Source of the DNA: Bacillota bacterium
Lineage (GTDB): Bacteria > Bacillota_A > Clostridia > Acetivibrionales > DUMB01
Assembly: GCA_023621975.1 (NCBI GenBank)
Contig: JAMOAC010000098.1
Location: 1-9,812, forward strand
Length of the DNA stretch: 9,812 nt
Direction: 5' to 3'
Position 1 is the first letter of the stretch. Every line of letters starts with the position of its first letter. A program made the position numbers and the translations under genes. The notes below the pieces were generated by a model, which saw nothing but the letters and a program-made list of their open reading frames with translations, searched no databases and was not told where the DNA came from. This document shows, piece after piece, positions 167 through 9,812 of the stretch.

Positions 167-1183
167 ATGAAATTAGCTAATAAGAAAATTTTGGCTATAT
201 TGTTGGCAGTTTTTATGCTTATAAGTTTAGCAGCTTGTGGCGGCACCGCACCGAATCAACAGAAAGGTGATGCAAATAATTCAGCTGAAGGACCCGATAA
301 ATCTGCAGATTCTGGAAAAGGACTGGACAAAATTGCTTTTATCGTTGCTGATATGGCCAACGAGTCCCAGGCTTTTTCATCAAGAATGTTCCAAAAGTAT
401 GGTAAAGATTATAACTTCGAAGTCATAATCCTTGATGCAAAAGGAGACGTTCAGCTTGAAACTCAGGCAGTAAACAATGCCGTAGCACAGGGTGTAAAGG
501 CTCTCTTCGTAAACCCGAATGATATCAATGCTATCGTTCCTGCTCTTGAGGCGGCAAAGAAAGCTGGCGTGGTTGTTGGATTGTATTCTTCTGACCTTCC
601 GCAGGATAAACAGAGCGCGCGTGACTTCTTTGTGGGTGTAAATGATAACCAGGCTGGTGAAGCAGCAGCAAAGGCTTTCATGGACAACTTCCCCGATGGA
701 GCAACTATTGTTGAGATAGGAGGACAATCAGGCCACGATGCGCAGATCAAACGTCATGATGGCTTTAATAACGCTATCAAGGGTTCCAAAATTCAGGTCA
801 TTGACTATAAAGCAACTCAGCAGTGGTCTACAGAACAGGCTATGGCTATCATGGAAGATATGATAACCAAGCATGGAGATAAAATCCAGGGTGTGTTTGT
901 CCACTGGGACAATGGTGCAACTGGCGTTATCCAGGCTGCAAAGGCTGCAAATATGGAAGGCTTGTTCATAGTAGGAGTTGACGGAAACAGGGCTGGCTTT
1001 GAACAAGTAAGACAAGGTGAACAGAGTGTAACTATAATGCAGAACTTTGAAAACATGGCCAAAAAGTCCCTTGAGCTGGCCAGAAAAGTTATCGACGGCG
1101 AAAAAGTTGAACCTTTGAACTTCATTCCTCTCGATATAGTTAACAAAGACAATATAGACAATTTCACTCCCCCAGAATGGTAA
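167..1183 (+). CDS. Sugar/polyol ABC transporter solute-binding lipoprotein (RbsB-like)
   Basis: This is a lipid-anchored extracytoplasmic receptor that captures a sugar-like ligand and delivers it to the membrane permeases encoded downstream. The 338-residue protein opens with a lysine-containing n-region, a hydrophobic stretch (residues 8-20) and a lipobox LAAC at 21-24, so Cys24 should be the lipidated N-terminus. A low-complexity Asn/Ser/Gly/Asp/Lys linker follows to about residue 52. The rest, from KIAFIVADM onward, is a type I periplasmic-binding fold of the Peripla_BP_4 (ribose/galactose/inositol-binding) class, with the typical GVKALFVNPND and FIVGVDGN segments. The length is normal for the family. 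The family binds pentoses, hexoses, cyclitols and, in some members, autoinducer-2. The ligand cannot be read from the sequence, but the dehydratase-like enzyme downstream suggests a polyol. The gene is first in the transporter operon and is separated from the ATPase gene by a hairpin that may uncouple their expression levels. Confidence 0.95.
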   Translation: MKLANKKILAILLAVFMLISLAACGGTAPNQQKGDANNSAEGPDKSADSGKGLDKIAFIVADMANESQAFSSRMFQKYGKDYNFEVIILDAKGDVQLETQAVNNAVAQGVKALFVNPNDINAIVPALEAAKKAGVVVGLYSSDLPQDKQSARDFFVGVNDNQAGEAAAKAFMDNFPDGATIVEIGGQSGHDAQIKRHDGFNNAIKGSKIQVIDYKATQQWSTEQAMAIMEDMITKHGDKIQGVFVHWDNGATGVIQAAKAANMEGLFIVGVDGNRAGFEQVRQGEQSVTIMQNFENMAKKSLELARKVIDGEKVEPLNFIPLDIVNKDNIDNFTPPEW

Positions 1184-1216
1184 TATAGGATGTTTTGTAT
1201 AAAATAATAAAAATAA

Positions 1217-1263
1217 AATATTAGAGCTCGTTGTGGCGCTAAGCCAAAACGAGTTCTAATATT
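1217..1263 (+). terminator. Long intercistronic hairpin (attenuator, leaky terminator or mRNA-stabilising stem)
   Basis: Arms 1217-1237 and 1243-1263 form 21 opposed positions around a five-base loop GCTAA. Twenty pair, including one G-U (1226/1254), and one is a G-A mismatch (1233/1247). On the plus strand the stem is followed by A- and T-mixed sequence (AAAATTATTTG) rather than a clean U run. On the minus strand it is followed by a T-rich tract, but no gene requires that orientation. It sits in the 122-base gap between the binding-protein and ATPase genes. At this position such stems commonly protect the upstream message or partly stop transcription, so that the receptor outnumbers the membrane components. 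The structure is directly visible, but the function is inferred. Confidence 0.7.
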
Positions 1264-1305
1264 AAAATTATTTGTATTAAAATTATCCGAAAGAGGTTAT
1301 TTCCA

Positions 1306-2823
1306 ATGGGAAATAGTAGACAGGAAATTATTCTGAGCATCAAAAACGTGAGCAAATCCTTTCCTGGAGTCAAGGCTCTGGATAAAGTTTCGCTTGAAGT
1401 ACGGCGTGGTACTGTGCATGGGATAGTAGGGGAAAACGGCGCTGGTAAATCGACACTGATGAAAATATTGTCCGGAGTGTATCAAAAGGACTCAGGCACT
1501 ATTATTTTTGACGGCGAGGAAATTAAAAGCACAACGCCCATTCAGTCTATGAAAAGAGGTCTCAGCATCATCTATCAGGAATTAAACCTTGTAAATACTA
1601 TGAGCGTCGGTGAGAATATTTTTCTCGGACGCTTCGGTGAAATGGGTGGTATGCGCGGAGTCCATGCAAAAGCAAAAGAGTTGCTTAAAAGTATTGGCAG
1701 CAATATCGATACTTACAAGTTGGTTTCCGAACTTAGTGTTTCTGAAAAACAGATGGTAGAGATCGCAAAGGCATTATCGTTCGATTCAAAGCTCATTATC
1801 ATGGATGAGCCAAGCAGCAGCCTGACTGCTGATGAAATGAAGGAATTGGTCAAGATTATTCACCATCTTAAAGAACAAGGTATTTCAATTATATATATAA
1901 GCCACAAATTGGACGAAATATTTGAGTTTTGCAGTATGGTAACTATCATGCGTGACGGGCATGTCATCGATACTAAGCCTATTTCCGAAATTACGCGTGC
2001 CGAAATGATTGCGAAGATGGTAGGCCGTCCAATTGAAAATGAATATCCCGAACGGCCTGATTGCGTAGGCGAAACGTTAATGGAAGTTCGATCAATAAAT
2101 ACAAAAAAATTGCATAATATATCCTTTAAACTTAGAAAAGGAGAGATTCTTGGTTTTGTGGGGCTTGTCGGAGCAGGAAGGACTGAGATTGTAAGGGCGA
2201 TATTCGGCGCGGACAAGGTGAAGGGCTGTGAGATCCTTATAGATGGAAAGCCCGTCAAAATAAAGAATCCCAGGGACGCAAAGAAAGCCGGTATAGCTCT
2301 TGTACCGGAGGATCGAAAGCTGCAGGGCCTTGTGCTTCCCTTCTCAGTGGAGTCCAATATCTCTATGGCAAACCTGGACAAGATAACGAAGTTTGGATTT
2401 TTGGACAGTTCGGCAGAAAGGAATATAGCCGAAAAACATGTTAAAGCGCTCGGGATTAAAACCCCCTCTATCAAGACCAAGGTTCGGAGCCTTTCAGGAG
2501 GCAACCAGCAGAAGTGTATAGTTGGGCGCTGGATGGAGACGAACCCGCGCATTCTTATTCTGGATGAACCTACAAGAGGTATAGACGTAGGAGCTAAATA
2601 CGAGATTTACCTTTTAATGAAGAAGATTGCCGAAAGTGGTGGATCTATTATACTGATATCCTCCGAACTACCCGAAGTTCTGAATATGAGTAATCGTGTT
2701 CTTACAATTTGCGACGGACGAATAACAGGAGAATTTGATCCCAGAACAGCTTCGGCAGATCAGATAATGGAGAAGGCACTTGAATTTGGCAGAAAGGATC
2801 TGGAACATGAGAGAGCAAATTAA
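1306..2823 (+). CDS. Sugar ABC transporter ATP-binding protein with two nucleotide-binding domains (RbsA/MglA-like)
   Basis: This cytoplasmic ATPase energises sugar uptake. Two ABC domains are fused in 505 residues, the usual CUT2 length. Domain 1 has Walker A GENGAGKST (42-50), Q-loop Gln91, signature LSVSEKQ (143-149), Walker B LIIMDE (163-168) and switch His200. Domain 2 has the degenerate P-loop GLVGAGRTE (286-294), with Arg in place of the P-loop Lys as is typical of RbsA and MglA, then signature LSGGNQQ (396-402) and Walker B ILILDE (416-421). The start is supported by AAGAGG at 1291-1296, nine bases upstream. The 3' end overlaps the first permease gene by 17 bases, a sign of translational coupling. 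Members of this family serve ribose, galactose, xylose, inositol and other ligands, so the ATPase does not identify the substrate. Confidence 0.96.
   Translation: MGNSRQEIILSIKNVSKSFPGVKALDKVSLEVRRGTVHGIVGENGAGKSTLMKILSGVYQKDSGTIIFDGEEIKSTTPIQSMKRGLSIIYQELNLVNTMSVGENIFLGRFGEMGGMRGVHAKAKELLKSIGSNIDTYKLVSELSVSEKQMVEIAKALSFDSKLIIMDEPSSSLTADEMKELVKIIHHLKEQGISIIYISHKLDEIFEFCSMVTIMRDGHVIDTKPISEITRAEMIAKMVGRPIENEYPERPDCVGETLMEVRSINTKKLHNISFKLRKGEILGFVGLVGAGRTEIVRAIFGADKVKGCEILIDGKPVKIKNPRDAKKAGIALVPEDRKLQGLVLPFSVESNISMANLDKITKFGFLDSSAERNIAEKHVKALGIKTPSIKTKVRSLSGGNQQKCIVGRWMETNPRILILDEPTRGIDVGAKYEIYLLMKKIAESGGSIILISSELPEVLNMSNRVLTICDGRITGEFDPRTASADQIMEKALEFGRKDLEHERAN
2793..2798 (+). promoter_or_regulatory. 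Ribosome binding site that decides the first permease start
   Basis: AAAGGA lies eight bases before the ATG at 2807, inside the end of the ATPase gene. A TTG start at 2780 in the same frame would add nine residues but has no comparable Shine-Dalgarno, so ATG 2807 is preferred. Confidence 0.6.
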
Positions 2824-3781
2824 TTTCAAAAACGTTCTTCAGACTGTATTTAGGGATTATCTGGTTTTGGCTGCGATCGCTTTACTTGTAATAGTCACCT
2901 CAATAGTTGAGCCGAAATTCCTGACAACAGGAAATATGACAAATATTATGCGTCAGTTTGGCCCCCTGATCATGGTTGCTCTTGGCATGACCTTTGTAAT
3001 TATAGGCGGTTTCATAGACTTATCAGTATCAGGCATACTTTCCCTTGTAGCTGTTGTGACCATTTCTCTTATTGAACCTCTCGGGCAGGTAGGTGCACTG
3101 ATTGCAGGCTTATGCCTGGGAACCTTTTGCGGGTACCTGAACAGCGTACTGATACTGGCCAGTGGAGCTATGAAGCAAGCTGAAGCTTTGTTTATCACCT
3201 ATGGTATGAGCACGGTATACGGTGCTTTAGCGCTGATTTACAGCGGAGGGCGAACGAAGCAAATGAGCTGGGTAAAAGCAGATACTTCCATTTTTAAAAC
3301 GATAGGTACAGGAACCGTTGGATTCCTTTCTGTGTCCTTCATCATGTTTCTCGTTTGCCTCCTGTTGTTGTATATATTCCAAAACAAAACATATATGGGA
3401 CGGACTATTTATTTGACCGGTGGTAATAAAACTGCAGCAGAACTTGCTGGAATACCTATTAAGCGAAGCATAACCTTAATTTACACGATTTCCGGTTTGA
3501 TGACTGCCCTGGGTGCCATTGTACTGTTCTCACGTGTGACTGCTGCATCACCGGTTATCGGTAAAGGTTATGAAACAAATGCTATTCTTGCTGTAGTTGT
3601 CGGTGGTACAACACTGATAGGAGGAAATGGAAGCGTACTGCGTACCGTATTAGGTACCACACTGGTCATACTCCTGTCTAACTGCTTGAATTTACTGGGC
3701 GTTTCGGTCTACATGCAATACATGTTGAAAGGTGCTATCTTGGTCCTTGCCATCTGGCTTGATAGTCGCAAGCAACTTTAG
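2807..3781 (+). CDS. Sugar ABC transporter permease 1 (RbsC-like, BPD_transp_2 family)
   Basis: This integral membrane subunit forms half of the sugar translocation channel. From ATG 2807 it has 324 residues, normal for the family. A TTG at 2780 in the same frame would give 333. Hydrophobic segments run through the whole protein, compatible with eight to ten membrane helices. Family landmarks are the GGFIDLSVSG motif after the second hydrophobic segment, the cytoplasmic loop containing TGGNKTAAELAGIPIKR, which contacts the ATPase, and the late glycine-rich GGTTLIGGNGSV. The start codon lies within the ATPase gene, and the stop codon touches the Shine-Dalgarno of the next permease, so these three genes should be co-translated in fixed ratio. 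It probably pairs with the second permease as a heterodimer, whereas ribose systems use a single RbsC homodimer. Confidence 0.94.
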   Translation: MREQINFKNVLQTVFRDYLVLAAIALLVIVTSIVEPKFLTTGNMTNIMRQFGPLIMVALGMTFVIIGGFIDLSVSGILSLVAVVTISLIEPLGQVGALIAGLCLGTFCGYLNSVLILASGAMKQAEALFITYGMSTVYGALALIYSGGRTKQMSWVKADTSIFKTIGTGTVGFLSVSFIMFLVCLLLLYIFQNKTYMGRTIYLTGGNKTAAELAGIPIKRSITLIYTISGLMTALGAIVLFSRVTAASPVIGKGYETNAILAVVVGGTTLIGGNGSVLRTVLGTTLVILLSNCLNLLGVSVYMQYMLKGAILVLAIWLDSRKQL

Positions 3782-3785
3782 GAGG
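3780..3785 (+). promoter_or_regulatory. AGGAGG ribosome binding site overlapping the preceding stop codon
   Basis: A perfect AGGAGG begins on the last two bases of the TAG stop of permease 1 and lies eight bases before ATG 3794. This arrangement suits translational coupling of the two permeases. Confidence 0.85.
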
Positions 3786-3793
3786 AAACTGGG

Positions 3794-4762
3794 ATGAAAA
3801 ATATTAACATTGGCAAAAATCTTCTAACTATAGCAACCAAACAAAAGGCAGTTATAGCCATTATAGTGATTTTGGTGATTATGCTTTTTCCAAAAACCAA
3901 CTTTTACACAGCATATAATCTGTTCGATATGATAAAATCGGTATCTATACTTATGATACTCGCTTTCGGTGTTACGCTGGTGCTTGTGGCCGGAGGGTGC
4001 GATCTGTCCATTGGGGGCATTATGATTGTGTCGGGTATAGTAGCAATCAAGTTAATGAATGCCAATGTTCCCATGTGGATTTCCATATTGGCTGCACTGC
4101 TTGTAGGAGCCATTGTGGGCGCTATAAACGGTTACTTGGTTGTTTATCATAATACAGAGCCATTCATTATTACATTGGGAATGGGCATGCTCCTCACGGG
4201 TATAGCCCAGCAGTTGACTGATGCGCACCCCATCTCTTGCAATAACCCAAATTTTGTGAAACTTGCCAACGACAAATTATTTAATACAATACCTAACCTT
4301 GTTATAGTCATGCTTATTGTATTCTTTATTATACATTACATTTTGCGTTATACTTCATTTGGCAGAAATTGCTATGCTATAGGCGGTGACTACGAGGTAG
4401 CGAAGTATTCCGGCATCAATGTCCTTCCAACAAAAGCGATGACTTTTTTAATTTGCGGTATTACTGCTGCTCTGGGTGGAGTAATGCTTTCATCCATGCT
4501 GAATTCAGGATCCTCAACATACGGTGATACTACTGCACTTGTAGTCAACTGCGGTGTAGTGGTAGGCGGTACTTCCTTCGCAGGCGGTATCGGCAGTGCA
4601 CCACAGTCAGCCATTGGTCTGCTGGTGTTCGGCGTACTTCAAAATTCCATGAACATGCTTGGTATTGATGCCTATGTTCAGCAGATTATACAAGGTATAG
4701 TGATTGTGGTCATTATCTGTCTTGACTGCTATGGCAGAAAACGCAAGCGTGAAGCTGTATGA
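3794..4762 (+). CDS. Sugar ABC transporter permease 2 (RbsC-like, BPD_transp_2 family)
   Basis: This is the second membrane-spanning subunit of the importer, 322 residues, highly hydrophobic, with a positively charged C-terminus (YGRKRKREAV). It carries the family motif in the form GGCDLSIGG, with Cys where permease 1 has Ile and many relatives have Ile or Ala. It also has the ATPase-facing loop IGGDYEVAKYSGINV and the late GGTSFAGGIGSA segment. It is clearly homologous to permease 1 but diverged throughout, so it is not a recent duplicate. With two different permeases and one double-domain ATPase, the complex is probably one receptor, two distinct channel halves and an ATPase. A 63-base gap separates it from the GRE gene, with no clear terminator, so catabolic genes and transporter are likely co-transcribed. 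Confidence 0.94.
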   Translation: MKNINIGKNLLTIATKQKAVIAIIVILVIMLFPKTNFYTAYNLFDMIKSVSILMILAFGVTLVLVAGGCDLSIGGIMIVSGIVAIKLMNANVPMWISILAALLVGAIVGAINGYLVVYHNTEPFIITLGMGMLLTGIAQQLTDAHPISCNNPNFVKLANDKLFNTIPNLVIVMLIVFFIIHYILRYTSFGRNCYAIGGDYEVAKYSGINVLPTKAMTFLICGITAALGGVMLSSMLNSGSSTYGDTTALVVNCGVVVGGTSFAGGIGSAPQSAIGLLVFGVLQNSMNMLGIDAYVQQIIQGIVIVVIICLDCYGRKRKREAV

Positions 4763-4825
4763 TATACCTGATTAAAAAGCCATTGGACTCCGGATTTTAA
4801 TTGGAGGCTTGGAGAGTGAAAGAGT

Positions 4826-7201
4826 ATGGCAAACTACATCGAAGAGATTTCAAAATTACAAATGAGCCACAGGATATCCCTGCTAAAAGAAAGAATGCTG
4901 AGCGAACCAAGGTTTCTATCCCTGGAACAGGCACTGCTCATAACACAGTGTTATAAGGAAAATGAAAATCTTCCTCGCATTCTTCAAAGAGCCAAGAGCC
5001 TTGCATTGGCACTTAACAAAATAGAGATAAGAATTGACCCATTGGAGCTGATAGTAGGAAACCGCACACCTGGCGTAAGAGCAGGTGTGGTTTCGCCTGA
5101 AGCGGGTATTTCATGGATTGACAGGGAGATTGAAATTCTTCATGAAAGGCCACAGGATAAGTTCAATGTAAGAAAAGAAGACATTGAAGAATTCAGAAAA
5201 ACTATTCTTCCATATTGGAAGGGAAAGTCTCTTGAAGATGCGGTAAATGATAGGCTGGGGGCGGAAATATCTGCTATTGCAAAAGTAGTAAAAATCAATC
5301 AGACAGACCATGCCCAAGGGCATATCTGCCCCAACACGCAAAAATGGCTGGCAATGGGGCCGGCAGGATTGAAAAAGGAAGCTGAAGAAAAGCTTAAGAC
5401 GGCTTCAGGGGATAAAAAGGTTTTCTATGAAAGTGTAATTATTGTGCTTTCTGCTGCTCAGGATTTTATGAGAAGGTATAGCAAGCTCGCAAAAAAGATG
5501 CTCGAGGAAGTCTCTGACAGCAGTCTGAGGGATAATCTTATTCAAATTGAAAGAATATGCGCAAAGCTTGCAGACAGTCCTCCAGAGACATTCCGGGAGG
5601 CAGTTCAGTCATTATGGTTCTTATTTGTCATTTTGCATATGGAATCTAATGCCTCTTCCTTCTCACCTGGAAGAGCCGATCAGTATCTGTACCCATATTT
5701 TAAAAAGGACATTGACAGCGGAAAGCTGGATCTTTCCGGTGCCTTGGAGATAATTGAAGCTTTATGGCTTAAGTTTAACCAGATAGTGTATTTAAGAAAT
5801 TCTAACAGCGCAAAATACTTTGCCGGTTTCCCCATAGGATTTAATATTGCCTGCGGCGGCCAAACTCAAGATGGCAGGGATGCATCGAATGAGCTGTCCT
5901 TCCTGTTCCTTAAGGCACAGGAACACTTGCTGCTTCCTCAGCCAAATTTATCTGCCAGATTGTTCAAAGGCTCATCCAGTGAGTTTGTAGACCAGTGTAG
6001 CAGGGTTATAGGAATGGGTAGCGGGATGCCTCAGATCTTTAATGATGAAAGCATAATTCCGGCTTTAATAAATAAAGGTATAAGCAAAGAGGATGCTACT
6101 AATTATGCCATAGTTGGATGTGTAGAGCTTACCACTCATGGAAACAACCTTGGCTGGAGCGATGCTGCTATGTTAAATCTTGTCAAAGTGCTGGAGCTGA
6201 CTCTTAACAATGGTATCTGCCTCCAGACAGGTGTCCGGATGGGCCTGCCGACAGGTTATCTGACTGACTATAAGACTTATGAGGAGCTTGAGGAAGCATA
6301 TAAAAAGCAGCTTGACCATTTTATAGACAGGATGATTGCAGTTTGTGATGCTGTTGACAGGATGCATGCTGAATTCCTGCCGACACCTTTTCTTTCCAGC
6401 GTCATTGACGACTGCCTGGAAAAAGGCATGGACGTTACTGCTGGCGGCGCTCGCTATAACCTTTCCGGAATACAGGCCATTCAGGTGGCAAATATAGCAG
6501 ACAGCCTGGCTGTTATCAAAAAGCTGGTTTATGACGAGGGTACCCTTAAGGCTGAAGAACTTTTAGAGGCGCTTCAGACAAACTATGAAGGACGTGAAGA
6601 ATTAAGGCAGTACCTTATCAATAAAGTTCCAAAGTATGGCAATGACGTTGCATGGGTCGATAATATAGGCGCCAAATGGATTGAGTACTTTGCAAAGAAA
6701 ATGGAAGGTTACAGAAACGCTAGAGGTGGTCCGTACCATACAGGACTTTACACTGTTTCTGCGCACATACCCATGGGACACAATGTTGGGGCTTCTCCAG
6801 ACGGAAGACTGTCAGGGGATCCTCTTGCGGATGGCGGCATGTCGGCAATGTATGGAAGGGATCGGAACGGGCCGACAGCACTTTTGAAATCCGTCTCAAG
6901 GATAAATTCAATGTACGGCAGTAACGGCACTTTACTCAACATGAAGTTCCTTCCTGACATTTTCAAGACTGAAGAAGGAATCAAAAAGTTTTCATCCCTG
7001 CTTATGACATTTGTGGACCTTGGGATAAACCACGTACAATTCAACGTAGTGAGGAGGGAAGACCTGATCGAGGCAAAAAAAAGGCCTGAAGAATATAGAG
7101 GACTTACTGTCAGAGTGGCAGGTTATACAGCATACTTTACAGAGCTTGCCAGTGACCTCCAGGATGAAATCATTGAAAGAACAAGCTATGGAGATATCTG
7201 A
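4826..7201 (+). CDS. Glycyl radical enzyme, dehydratase/lyase branch (PFL-like family), substrate unknown
   Basis: This is a 791-residue cytoplasmic enzyme that stores a radical on a backbone glycine and uses it, through a cysteine thiyl radical, to activate a substrate C-H bond. The PFL-like domain spans roughly residues 10-660 and the glycine radical domain about 660-791. The radical motif RVAGYTAYF puts the radical on Gly766. The catalytic motif GCVE gives Cys432 and Glu434, and WSDAAM gives Asp446. Pyruvate formate-lyase has two adjacent cysteines here, so this is not PFL. The Cys/+2 Glu/+14 Asp spacing equals that of B12-independent glycerol dehydratase (Cys433, Glu435, Asp447), and His166 in GHICPN aligns with its His164. 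The segment NASSFSPGR (275-283) appears to replace the dehydratase His281-Ser282 pair with Ser277-Ser278, and Leu rather than the common Pro follows GCVE, so the substrate probably differs from glycerol. An in-frame TGA at 4817 excludes a longer protein. There is no N-terminal microcompartment-targeting extension. Alternatives are an amino-acid or sulfonate lyase of the same superfamily. Confidence 0.95.
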   Translation: MANYIEEISKLQMSHRISLLKERMLSEPRFLSLEQALLITQCYKENENLPRILQRAKSLALALNKIEIRIDPLELIVGNRTPGVRAGVVSPEAGISWIDREIEILHERPQDKFNVRKEDIEEFRKTILPYWKGKSLEDAVNDRLGAEISAIAKVVKINQTDHAQGHICPNTQKWLAMGPAGLKKEAEEKLKTASGDKKVFYESVIIVLSAAQDFMRRYSKLAKKMLEEVSDSSLRDNLIQIERICAKLADSPPETFREAVQSLWFLFVILHMESNASSFSPGRADQYLYPYFKKDIDSGKLDLSGALEIIEALWLKFNQIVYLRNSNSAKYFAGFPIGFNIACGGQTQDGRDASNELSFLFLKAQEHLLLPQPNLSARLFKGSSSEFVDQCSRVIGMGSGMPQIFNDESIIPALINKGISKEDATNYAIVGCVELTTHGNNLGWSDAAMLNLVKVLELTLNNGICLQTGVRMGLPTGYLTDYKTYEELEEAYKKQLDHFIDRMIAVCDAVDRMHAEFLPTPFLSSVIDDCLEKGMDVTAGGARYNLSGIQAIQVANIADSLAVIKKLVYDEGTLKAEELLEALQTNYEGREELRQYLINKVPKYGNDVAWVDNIGAKWIEYFAKKMEGYRNARGGPYHTGLYTVSAHIPMGHNVGASPDGRLSGDPLADGGMSAMYGRDRNGPTALLKSVSRINSMYGSNGTLLNMKFLPDIFKTEEGIKKFSSLLMTFVDLGINHVQFNVVRREDLIEAKKRPEEYRGLTVRVAGYTAYFTELASDLQDEIIERTSYGDI

Positions 7202-8124
7202 TGTATGGTAATATTATAGATATTAAAAAATTCACGGTTCATGACGGACCAGGAATCAGAAGCACGGTTTTTCTGAAGGGTTGTCCCTTGAGATGTATCT
7301 GGTGCCATAATCCAGAAGGGATTGACAGCAAAATTAACCTGTGGTATTTCGAAAAAAAATGCATAGGTTGTCATAGATGCGTTGCAGCCTGCAAAAATAG
7401 TGCTTTGTCTATAGGTAATGCAAGCCCTCATATTGTGATTGACAGGGAAAAATGCATTAATGCTGGAGACTGTGTAGAGGTATGCCCTACTGCAGCCCTA
7501 TGCTTTGATGGAAAAAGAGTTTCCCAAGAGGAAGTGGTAGATGTACTTCTGGAAGACAAGCCGTTTTATAATAAATCTGGCGGAGGTATAACCATTTCCG
7601 GTGGAGACCCGCTATTCCAGCATGAATTTTCATTAGGAACCTTAAAGGACTGCAAGAAGCACAACATACATACAGCCATTGAAACCTGTATGTACGCCAA
7701 AAAAGAAATCTTTGAAAAATTTTTTGACTATGTGGACTTGTTCATTGTTGATTTAAAAATTTTCAACTCAGCTAACCATAAGAAATATACCGGTGTGGGA
7801 AACGAGCTTATCAAGTCAAATTTTGAATTTTTGGCTTCAAAGAAAGAAAACATTCTGGTGAGGATTCCCCTGGTACCCGGTATTACTGCAACGAAAGAGA
7901 ATATAGGCGAAATTGCATCCTTTGTCTGTGAAGTAAATAATAAAATACCTATAGAACTCATGAATTATAATCCTCTTGGAGAAAACAAATACAGGCTTAT
8001 GGGAAAATATAATGGGTTAATAAACGGTTTAAAGCCGCTGCCGGAGCCGGAACTGGATGAGCTGTATCAGGTAATTGCAGATAAAGGTGTAAAAATAGTA
8101 AGGGGAAAAAAGGTGAAGAAATGA
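7201..8124 (+). CDS. Glycyl radical enzyme activating enzyme (radical SAM, ferredoxin-insert type)
   Basis: This enzyme reductively cleaves S-adenosylmethionine to install the radical on Gly766 of the upstream GRE. The 307-residue protein has the radical SAM motif CPLRCIWC, with Cys28, Cys32 and Cys35 (CX3CX2C), right after the family segment DGPGIRSTVFLKG. A ferredoxin-like insert follows. Its first cluster motif is complete (Cys54, Cys57, Cys60, Cys64). The second reads CINAGDCVEVC, with Cys85, Cys91 and Cys95 but Ala88 where a cysteine is usual. The GGGITISGGDP motif (127-137) and DLKIFN continue the SAM-binding barrel. The length and the insert are typical of activases for dehydratase and decarboxylase GREs, unlike the shorter PFL activase, which lacks the insert. 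The start codon shares one base with the GRE stop (TGATG), so the partner proteins are translationally coupled. Confidence 0.95.
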   Translation: MYGNIIDIKKFTVHDGPGIRSTVFLKGCPLRCIWCHNPEGIDSKINLWYFEKKCIGCHRCVAACKNSALSIGNASPHIVIDREKCINAGDCVEVCPTAALCFDGKRVSQEEVVDVLLEDKPFYNKSGGGITISGGDPLFQHEFSLGTLKDCKKHNIHTAIETCMYAKKEIFEKFFDYVDLFIVDLKIFNSANHKKYTGVGNELIKSNFEFLASKKENILVRIPLVPGITATKENIGEIASFVCEVNNKIPIELMNYNPLGENKYRLMGKYNGLINGLKPLPEPELDELYQVIADKGVKIVRGKKVKK

Positions 8125-9812
8125 TAAAGAAATTTCTACAATCTGCCAATGCGGGAGAACCGGTGTTTATAAGCACTGTTTCCGAAGCCTTCGAAAACAT
8201 GAAAGAAACTGAAAAGCAGGTAATGAATTGTGTACTTACGCTGTTAGAAAACGACGAAAAGCGGCTTTTTAAAATATACCTGCCGATTCTTAATGGCCTT
8301 GGTGCCGAAGAAATCAATTTTGTTAAAAGCTACGTGTGGGCTGAAATATATAATATACTTTCCAGCCTTGGCGGAAAGGAAATGAATATCTATATAGACA
8401 AAAGGAATTCTTCACTTACTGAACTGGCAGAAGAATTAAACCGGGTATTTTATATAGACAGTAAGCGTTCTGACAGGCGGGGATATGGCAGGGCTGTCAA
8501 TGTAATAGATCGGATGCTGGGTGCTCTGTGTGCTGATGCACCAGGTTTCAGATTCAATATCCTGGACATCTCTGAAATGCCGGAAATTAATAAAATCAAT
8601 AATACTGAAGGAAGGAAAAAGAACCGAGACCTAAGTGTATTCAAAAAGGTCACGGAAAACCTTGCTGGAAAGATCATATGCGGAATTGATGTGGGAGGAA
8701 CGGTTATTAAAACTGTTCTGGTGAAAGACGGTAATATAGACAGCTTTAAGGAATATAACTGGTTTCCTGCCGGATTCAGGGAAACAAGACAGCTTATAGA
8801 TCCAATATGTCTCATAGTCAGGCTTATGAGAGCAAAGATATCACTTGAAAGTCTCGATGATTCCTCCGGCGCGAAAAATGAATTAATAAGAGATATAGAA
8901 AAGGCACTGGATAAGAACGCAAGCAATGACTATATGCTTGCTGCAGTAGAAAAAGCAGAAGCTTTTCTTAATGGTAGATATTTGGAAATAGACGCAATAG
9001 GATTGACCTTTCCTGATGTGGTTGTCAGGAATAAGATTGTCGGAGGCGAAGTATATAAAACAAGAGGCATACGAAATAACCCCAATATAGATTATGAAAA
9101 AGACTTCTCAAAACTTACAAACTTAAATGACATACTTCGTAAGTTTATCAAGAAAGACGGGTCCGTAAATATTATAAACGACGGTTCAATGGCTGCTTTT
9201 ACTGCGGCAGTAGAAAATGCGGCGGCAGGTTACTATGAATTGCTTGCTGATGGTATATTTGCACATACCCTCGGAACTGAACTGGGAACCGGCTGGATTA
9301 ACAGGGACGGAATAATTCCAGATATCCCCCTTGAGGTATATAATTTCATCATTGACCTTGGAAGCTTTGTTGAAAAGCAATATCCTTCCGACGATTTAAG
9401 AAGCATAAACAATTTTAATACCGAACTTCCCGGAACACTGCAAAAATACTGCAGCCAGAGTGGTGTTTTCCGGCTTGCAATGAAGTATTTTCCGAAAGAG
9501 AGGCCGGATCTTTACCAGGAGCTGTTTAATAAAGGTTTCGTGGTTGAAAAGGAAGTGGATGGGCATACAGGCTATTATGTACCTACCGAACCTGAGGATA
9601 TGAGAAAGCCGTTTCTTAAACATATGATGGATCTGGTTGAGAGAGAAAATGATGAAGTCAGTAAAAGAATCTGGAAAGACATAGGTGCTTTTTTAGCTGT
9701 AACCTGGCTGGAAACTGAAAAAATTCTTAATCCAGGAACAGCAAGGCGTGTACTCTTCGGCGGACTTGTGGCAAGCAAGAAATGCTTTGAATTGATAAAA
9801 GAAGGCGCAAAT
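8121..9812 (+). CDS. Divergent ROK/ASKHA kinase-like protein with long N-terminal extension, 3' end outside window
   Basis: The frame opens at ATG 8121, overlapping the activase stop as ATGA, with AGGTGA just upstream, and stays open for 564 codons to the window edge. Residues 184-564 carry the ordered landmarks of an actin-like ATPase/sugar kinase fold: phosphate-1 loop GIDVGGTVIKTV (188-199), IINDGSMAA (351-359) with Asp354 at the ROK catalytic-base position, phosphate-2 loop GTELGTGWI (385-393), and adenosine-site VLFGGLV (544-550). The ROK zinc motif CXCGXXGC is absent, and insertions enlarge the domain well beyond the usual 300 residues. Residues 1-180 are mixed-charge with no membrane segment, and I recognise no domain there. 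It could phosphorylate the imported polyol or the GRE product, but a regulatory or non-catalytic sensor role is also possible. The GGT type of phosphate loop argues against a 2-hydroxyacyl-CoA dehydratase activator. Confidence 0.8.
   Translation, partial: MIKKFLQSANAGEPVFISTVSEAFENMKETEKQVMNCVLTLLENDEKRLFKIYLPILNGLGAEEINFVKSYVWAEIYNILSSLGGKEMNIYIDKRNSSLTELAEELNRVFYIDSKRSDRRGYGRAVNVIDRMLGALCADAPGFRFNILDISEMPEINKINNTEGRKKNRDLSVFKKVTENLAGKIICGIDVGGTVIKTVLVKDGNIDSFKEYNWFPAGFRETRQLIDPICLIVRLMRAKISLESLDDSSGAKNELIRDIEKALDKNASNDYMLAAVEKAEAFLNGRYLEIDAIGLTFPDVVVRNKIVGGEVYKTRGIRNNPNIDYEKDFSKLTNLNDILRKFIKKDGSVNIINDGSMAAFTAAVENAAAGYYELLADGIFAHTLGTELGTGWINRDGIIPDIPLEVYNFIIDLGSFVEKQYPSDDLRSINNFNTELPGTLQKYCSQSGVFRLAMKYFPKERPDLYQELFNKGFVVEKEVDGHTGYYVPTEPEDMRKPFLKHMMDLVERENDEVSKRIWKDIGAFLAVTWLETEKILNPGTARRVLFGGLVASKKCFELIKEGAN

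Follow-up and report, generated by a model that had tools for sequence, protein, structure and literature searches.

A PflD-like glycyl radical enzyme, a CUT2 importer and a candidate ROK-fold kinase form a putative anhydrohexitol operon in a Bacillota contig

A run of seven co-directional genes in a contig of a Bacillota bacterium (Clostridia, Acetivibrionales, DUMB01; contig JAMOAC010000098.1 of assembly GCA_023621975.1) encodes a sugar-type ATP-binding cassette (ABC) importer, a glycyl radical enzyme (GRE), its activase and a long ROK-like protein that we call ROKext. We propose, at a probability of about one half, that this operon serves the catabolism of a 1,5-anhydrohexitol of the 1,5-anhydromannitol or 1,5-anhydroglucitol type, or of a very close cyclic polyol, by a route free of the phosphotransferase system (PTS) and using an undescribed kinase. 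The gene content, the kinship of the GRE to Escherichia coli PflD, the kinase fold and the conserved linkage of these genes were computed here, starting from the whole 9,812-nucleotide stretch (hereafter the window) and extending to related loci (L numbers) and genomes (G numbers).

The closest precedent is found in E. coli, where the GREs YbiW and PflD cleave 1,5-anhydroglucitol-6-phosphate (AG6P) and 1,5-anhydromannitol-6-phosphate (AM6P) to 1-deoxyfructose-6-phosphate after phosphorylation by the PTS, as summarized in a 2025 review that cites Ma et al. 2024 (10.1021/jacs.4c07718). In E. coli records, the corresponding genes are arranged as frwC-frwB-pflD-pflC-frwD and as ybiW-ybiY beside fsaA. 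The steps that follow PflD and YbiW in E. coli are those of FsaA/FsaB and GldA.

Kinship of the glycyl radical enzyme with PflD

The GRE gene (4826-7201, + strand) was assigned to the PflD-like lyase/dehydratase type from its Pfam PFL-like and Gly_radical domains, its NCBIfam scores and its position in a tree. It encodes the hallmarks Cys432 and Glu434 within GCVE (codons 6119-6121 and 6125-6127) and Gly766 within RVAGY (codon 7121-7123), all invariant in a 13-row alignment (A3). Among PDB entries, PflD ranked first (690 bits), followed by 8id0 (648), glycerol dehydratase (596) and propanediol dehydratase (587), with YbiW at 466 bits; the window GRE is 44.3% identical to PflD and 34.4% to YbiW. 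It exceeds the cut-off of TIGR01774, a broad PFL2-3 model of the PFL2/glycerol-dehydratase type (826.7 against 678.2 bits), and falls below the NCBIfam equivalog cut-offs for CutC (553 against 1050 bits), HypD (585 against 1100) and HpsG/HpfG (577-582 against 1000).

Scanning the genome_contigs collection yielded GRE relatives at 56 loci. A quick tree of 59 GREs (six distant rows omitted; CutC, HypD and glycerol dehydratase not represented) places the window GRE in a 30-row clade (support 100) and PflD as the sister of this clade (SH-aLRT 99), on a long branch (1.3) and apart from YbiW and other GREs. Loci of the clade span Bacillota, Spirochaetota, Planctomycetota and Kiritimatiellota records.

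The predicted pocket resembles that of PflD in part. In seventeen alignment columns a single residue is kept throughout the clade, PflD has that residue too, and neither the 8 YbiW-like nor the 16 other GREs have it. Among these columns are Q159, D161, Q164, F335, G338, L435, T643 and H647, which lie around the active-site motifs. At the positions that we take to be His281 and Tyr339 in glycerol dehydratase, the clade has Ser in 28 of 30 rows and Gly in all 30, respectively, and PflD has the same two residues; at the position of Asn645, all 30 rows have His. The clade thus differs from the glycerol and propanediol dehydratases (1r8w, 5i2a), with which it shares the fold, the catalytic Cys, Glu and Gly, and equivalents of what are presumably His164 and Asp447 in glycerol dehydratase numbering. 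It likewise differs from YbiW, in which His, Tyr and Asn stand in place of the Ser, Gly and His of the clade, although the same chemistry is proposed for both.

The first-pass annotation had suggested that the GRE acts on a new substrate class, and this does not hold as worded: its list of known GRE loci lacked the E. coli PflD/YbiW precedent for phosphorylated 1,5-anhydrohexitols, and PflD is the nearest relative. The substrate is therefore probably not a new class for GREs.

A long ROK-fold protein and its conserved linkage

The last gene, ROKext (8121-9812, + strand), is cut by the window end, with 564 codons inside the window; a full-length relative at L002 has 611 amino acids. Neither the window part nor the L002 relative matches any Pfam or NCBIfam family. 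Fold matches, including 5f7q and Mlc, assign residues 180-611 to a ROK fold with its catalytic Asp; an invariant Asp353 occupies that position (putative codon 9180-9182), together with a GGT motif. The ROK zinc motif CxCGxxGC is missing from the ROKext consensus and present in that of a plain ROK set (A4), and the N-terminal domain has no PDB match. An earlier description as a 'ROK/ASKHA' protein thus fits residues 180-611 but not the N-terminal 150 residues, which are of another kind. Compared with ROK sugar kinases (NanK 6jdb, glucokinases and glucomannokinase), ROKext is only 9-21% identical, carries inserts and the extra N-terminal domain, and lacks both a Pfam ROK (PF00480) match and the zinc motif. 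Of 7999 entries scored, 1220 are homologues; the family has no domain model, and its members are listed as 'hypothetical protein'. Our best reading of these sequences is that ROKext represents an undescribed long ROK-fold kinase family, which would be the newest part of the system. In L001, an in-frame TAA lies near the ROKext start (8019-8061; 597 amino acids from a GTG), reflecting either an assembly error or natural shortening.

We compared the window with 25 clade loci from the GRE scan (L001-L023, L026, L048), six found through ROKext matches (L104-L106, L111, L112, L114) and seven through GRE matches (L148-L153, L132); counting the window, 38 clade loci were annotated, all but L132, a 3.2-kb contig. 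Among the window and the 25 loci found by GRE alone, 26 in all, ROKext adjoins the GRE/activase pair in 16. Across all the loci, a window-type importer ATPase occurs in 11 besides the window. This conservation, stronger for ROKext than for the importer, decides the refutation test of the first-pass annotation in that annotation's favour and backs its proposal of a sugar-type operon whose GRE probably acts on an imported carbohydrate or a phosphate thereof. Of the 38 annotated loci, 35 have a sugar-kinase gene within the stretch that was fetched, as ROKext (22 loci), plain ROK (nine: L008, L011, L017, L020, L148, L149, L151, L152 and L153) or PfkB (four: L016, L018, L021 and L022); L150 showed none, and L003 and L026 are cut too early to show one. 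Kinases of these types are widespread in bacteria and some of the genes counted here lie up to 7 kb away, so the weight rests on the directly adjacent ones.

Genome-wide counts also associate the two genes. Among 198 genomes around G005, the GRE clade occurs in 16 (15 above 1000 bits plus an edge fragment in G235), ROKext in eight and both in seven (Fisher p = 4e-8, uncorrected for kinship); without five previously known genomes the table is 4, 1, 7, 181 (Fisher p = 3e-5, likewise uncorrected). Strong ROKext matches occur in 2 of 100 genomes around G002, 4 of 199 around G022 and 3 of 196 around G004, not counting matches of 17-24 bits in 2, 7 and 3 more genomes, respectively. The ROKext gene is patchily distributed.

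Several loci depart from this arrangement. In L108 (3182-8320) the gene after a divergent ROKext encodes a GRE of another kind (42% identical to a YbiW-like one), with an activase next, and ROKext homologues also occur in L107, L109 and L110, from genomes lacking the clade GRE (43% and 41% identity to the nearest clade-linked ROKext in L107 and L109). In a sub-branch comprising L016, L018 and L022, PfkB kinase, amidohydrolase_2 and UPF0047 genes replace ROKext, with a GlcNAc-2-epimerase-like gene in L016 and L018. In L014, from a worm-symbiont spirochaete, Dak1 and Dak2 genes of the dihydroxyacetone-kinase type lie between importer and GRE (7925-9622).

The clade GRE also keeps company with YbiW. 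With a threshold of E <= 1e-150 and a set of 35 clade genomes from which Pontiella (L008, L011) is excluded, 27 have a YbiW homologue, the best per genome being 49-60% identical (that of G207 covers only residues 9-586). In 12 of these 27 it lies 0.9-10.9 kb from the clade GRE, where random placement would predict 0.2 to 0.4. In G002, the closest relative, whose clade GRE is 95% identical to that of the window, a homologue 59% identical to E. coli YbiW lies 8.7 kb away, and the order runs from this gene through its own activase and glyoxalase-family, AroE-family, ROK and DeoR genes to the window-type operon. L106 has a YbiW-like GRE and DeoR followed by window-type importer genes, and in L019 a related binding protein occurs together with a YbiW-like GRE, ROK and DeoR.

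Importer and operon layout

All seven open frames lie on the + strand, running from position 167 to the window end. The first encodes a lipoprotein substrate-binding protein (SBP) of a CUT2 (ribose-type) ABC importer (167-1183; PF13407, Peripla_BP_4, 8.4e-50), preceded by the putative ribosome-binding site GGGAGGAG; purine-rich stretches, possible ribosome-binding sites, precede several of the gene starts. It is followed by a sugar ABC transporter ATPase with two nucleotide-binding domains (1306-2823; two stretches of PF00005, ABC_tran), by CUT2 permease 1 (2807-3781, with an ATG at 2807; PF02653, BPD_transp_2, 3e-31, tested from 2810) and by CUT2 permease 2 (3794-4762; PF02653, 1.3e-40). Beyond the GRE lies its radical SAM activase with 4Fe-4S ferredoxin-type domains (7201-8124; Pfam Radical_SAM; TIGR02494, 333 bits against a cut-off of 174). 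All window proteins except the ROK-like one pass Pfam cut-offs (six of seven); the GRE and activase also pass those of NCBIfam subfamily models, and the transporter genes stay below equivalog cut-offs. The importer, GRE, activase and ROK-like protein read initially from position 167 onwards are confirmed, and neither microcompartment nor aldehyde dehydrogenase nor amino-acid genes are among the seven, as first noted.

The genes are tightly packed, with a 17-bp overlap between ATPase and permease 1, gaps of 12 bp between the permeases and 63 bp between permease 2 and GRE, a 1-bp overlap between GRE and activase and a 4-bp overlap between activase and ROKext. The first-pass annotation had the importer run into the GRE 'without a break', which is slightly generous because the 122-bp gap between SBP and ATPase holds a strong, long hairpin (1217-1263, + strand). 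When the region 1180-1306 was folded, its z-score was -6.33, and none of 200 shuffles reached equal stability. The hairpin has no T-run and is not predicted to be a terminator; it may direct transcript processing in favour of the binding protein.

The SBP, double ATPase and BPD_transp_2 permeases together identify a CUT2 ABC importer by Pfam. The nearest PDB entries of the SBP are ribose-type binding proteins (98.8 bits), and the best NCBIfam models of the ATPase are xylose, arabinose and ribose ATPases, all below equivalog cut-offs. The window-type ATPases elsewhere (L001, L002, L004-L007, L023, L026, L106, L112 and L114; eight of these 11 loci come from the GRE scan) are 67-97% identical to that of the window. 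More distant CUT2-type ATPases occur in L014, L016, L018, L021 and L022, and CUT1-like permeases (BPD_transp_1 in L017) and relatives in L017, L020, L148, L149 and L153, with weak similarity in L111. Importer queries found no match in L008, L011-L013, L015, L048, L104, L105 and L150-L152, a set that includes short stretches. In L009, an Asp/Glu-racemase family gene, a split transketolase and a TRAP importer (DctP, DctM) in place of the ABC importer follow the GRE (13007-18263). No PTS family was found in the window or among the annotated neighbours, which are part of all neighbours. The operon resembles E. coli PflD/PflC in GRE subfamily (PFL2-3), in some pocket residues and in the pairing of GRE with activase, and differs in having an ABC importer and ROKext where E. 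coli has PTS genes.

Two further gene groups adjoin the operon in relatives. A large beta-propeller protein (870-907 amino acids) is encoded beside or near the GRE in Vallitalea (L111, 15687-18299) and Pontiella (L011, 7250-9973), and its weak match to the lambda-carrageenase propeller hints at a polysaccharide source. In L002, a chemoreceptor and a histidine kinase with dCache domains directly follow the operon (15702-22373); a chemoreceptor also adjoins the importer in L004.

Proposed pathway and competing explanations

We infer each substrate and reaction of the following scheme. The CUT2 importer would take up the neutral compound and ROKext would phosphorylate it at O6, the two together taking the place of the E. 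coli PTS. The activase would then make the GRE radical-bearing, and the GRE would abstract the C2 hydrogen and cleave the ring C1-O5 bond to give a 1-deoxyketose-6-phosphate. An FSA-type aldolase, encoded in the same operon in some relatives, could split this product into glyceraldehyde-3-phosphate and hydroxyacetone, which an alcohol dehydrogenase would reduce. The most complete arrangement is that of L111 (Vallitalea longa, the name being our attribution), where genes for an iron-type alcohol dehydrogenase, GRE, activase, ROKext and an FSA-type aldolase are contiguous on one strand. L008 has GRE, activase, ROK kinase and iron-type alcohol dehydrogenase, and in L004 and L112 an FSA-type aldolase lies near the YbiW-like GRE. 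The aldolases of L004, L111 and L112 retain the FsaA residues Q59, K85 and Y131, where a paralogue in L061 has E (59) and F (131).

A number of results weigh against this proposal. The PflD equivalog NF007437 is the top-scoring equivalog for the window GRE, at 813.3 bits against a cut-off of 1109, and identity to PflD is only 44%. Of 198 clade-invariant columns, 43 differ from PflD (two as gaps), some of them near the active site (clade/PflD: H162/K, N440/R, F339/Y, N340/T, W444/L, S445/H), so that with 17 columns shared the clade pocket is PflD-like and not PflD-identical. A convincing FsaA homologue occurs in only five of 22 genomes (G003, G004, G019, G022 and, in two fragments, G020), and the two closest genomes have no clear aldolase gene (no match in G002, one of 24 bits in G001). 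YbiW homologues are absent at threshold from eight of the 35 clade genomes, including that of V. longa (G529), the best operon, and their frequency was counted within clade genomes only. In six of the 22 ROKext loci the linkage is by selection, since ROKext matches led to these loci; a further ten genomes were found by ROKext, which lies by the clade GRE in six and by another GRE in G345, while G303, G341 and G376 lack a clade GRE. Finally, two AroE-family neighbours of ROKext, in L002 (221.5 bits) and L023 (211.2), exceed the TIGR00507 (aroE) cut-off of 200.2.

A bolder version of the proposal, which we put forward tentatively, gives the clade GRE a phosphorylated cyclic polyol distinct from AG6P and AM6P as its substrate, to be ring-opened or dehydrated after the new, structurally distinct kinase family ROKext has made it. 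Anaerobic spirochaetes and clostridia would then be able to use, independently of the PTS, an environmental anhydro-sugar that has been overlooked. Also possible, if somewhat doubtful, is that the GRE belongs to the ordinary 1,2-diol dehydratases and has a different sugar alcohol, cyclitol or deoxy sugar as its substrate, phosphorylated or free and new to GREs, with the kinase making or consuming the phosphate. Five residues shared with glycerol dehydratase (N158, H166, C432, E434 and D446 in window numbering) occur in every one of the 30 clade rows, and the 43 clade-specific differences from PflD and the DhaK/DhaL-type genes of L014 fit such an activity. So do the Gfo/Idh/MocA genes immediately before the GRE in L151-L153: the PDB list of the L151 protein places scyllo-inositol dehydrogenase (188 bits) above 1,5-anhydrofructose reductase (eighth, 83 bits). 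The nearest model to the L151 protein is levoglucosan dehydrogenase (245 bits, cut-off 650). Pocket residues shared solely with PflD, the FSA aldolase and iron-type alcohol dehydrogenase of L111 and the linkage to YbiW argue for the anhydrohexitol pathway instead.

We consider it unlikely that the imported compound reaches the GRE without a phosphate, leaving ROKext to phosphorylate the product. PflD Lys162 and Arg440 (window numbering) are His and Asn here, which could mean that phosphate contacts were lost; reading these two residues as phosphate contacts is, however, conjecture, which makes this order of steps a guess, and the kinases of three families that accompany the clade are compatible with either order. 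Slightly less credible still is a role for ROKext as a regulator or GRE helper with no kinase activity. The 4-bp overlap with the activase gene, the extra N-terminal domain and the absent zinc motif would suit such a role, and some ROK proteins are repressors, in keeping with the fold matches 5f7q and Mlc. Against it stand the invariant Asp353 at the catalytic position, the GGT motif and the occurrence of distant ROKext genes without the clade GRE; no helix-turn-helix family was matched in ROKext either, because no family matched at all.

AroE-family genes directly follow ROKext in L006, L007, L015 and L023 and lie nearby in L002, L005 and L104. A shikimate/quinate or inositol pathway, which these neighbours and the two scores above the aroE cut-off would favour, is very improbable, as the L023 protein is closer to 5-ketofructose reductase, its best PDB relative at 234 bits, than to shikimate dehydrogenases (174 bits), and other shikimate or inositol catabolic families were not seen among the annotated neighbours. 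A paper on 5-ketofructose reductase describes that enzyme as shikimate-dehydrogenase-like and one clostridial relative as inactive on 5-ketofructose.

If the anhydrohexitol proposal is right, the binding protein, kinase and radical lyase would share one ligand. Enzymes handling 1,5-anhydroglucitol could be useful tools because the compound is of medical interest, as mentioned in the 2025 review. The proposal would name a testable function for ROKext, a large family of 'hypothetical proteins', and a pathway so far centred on E. coli and tied to the PTS would become a broader environmental theme.

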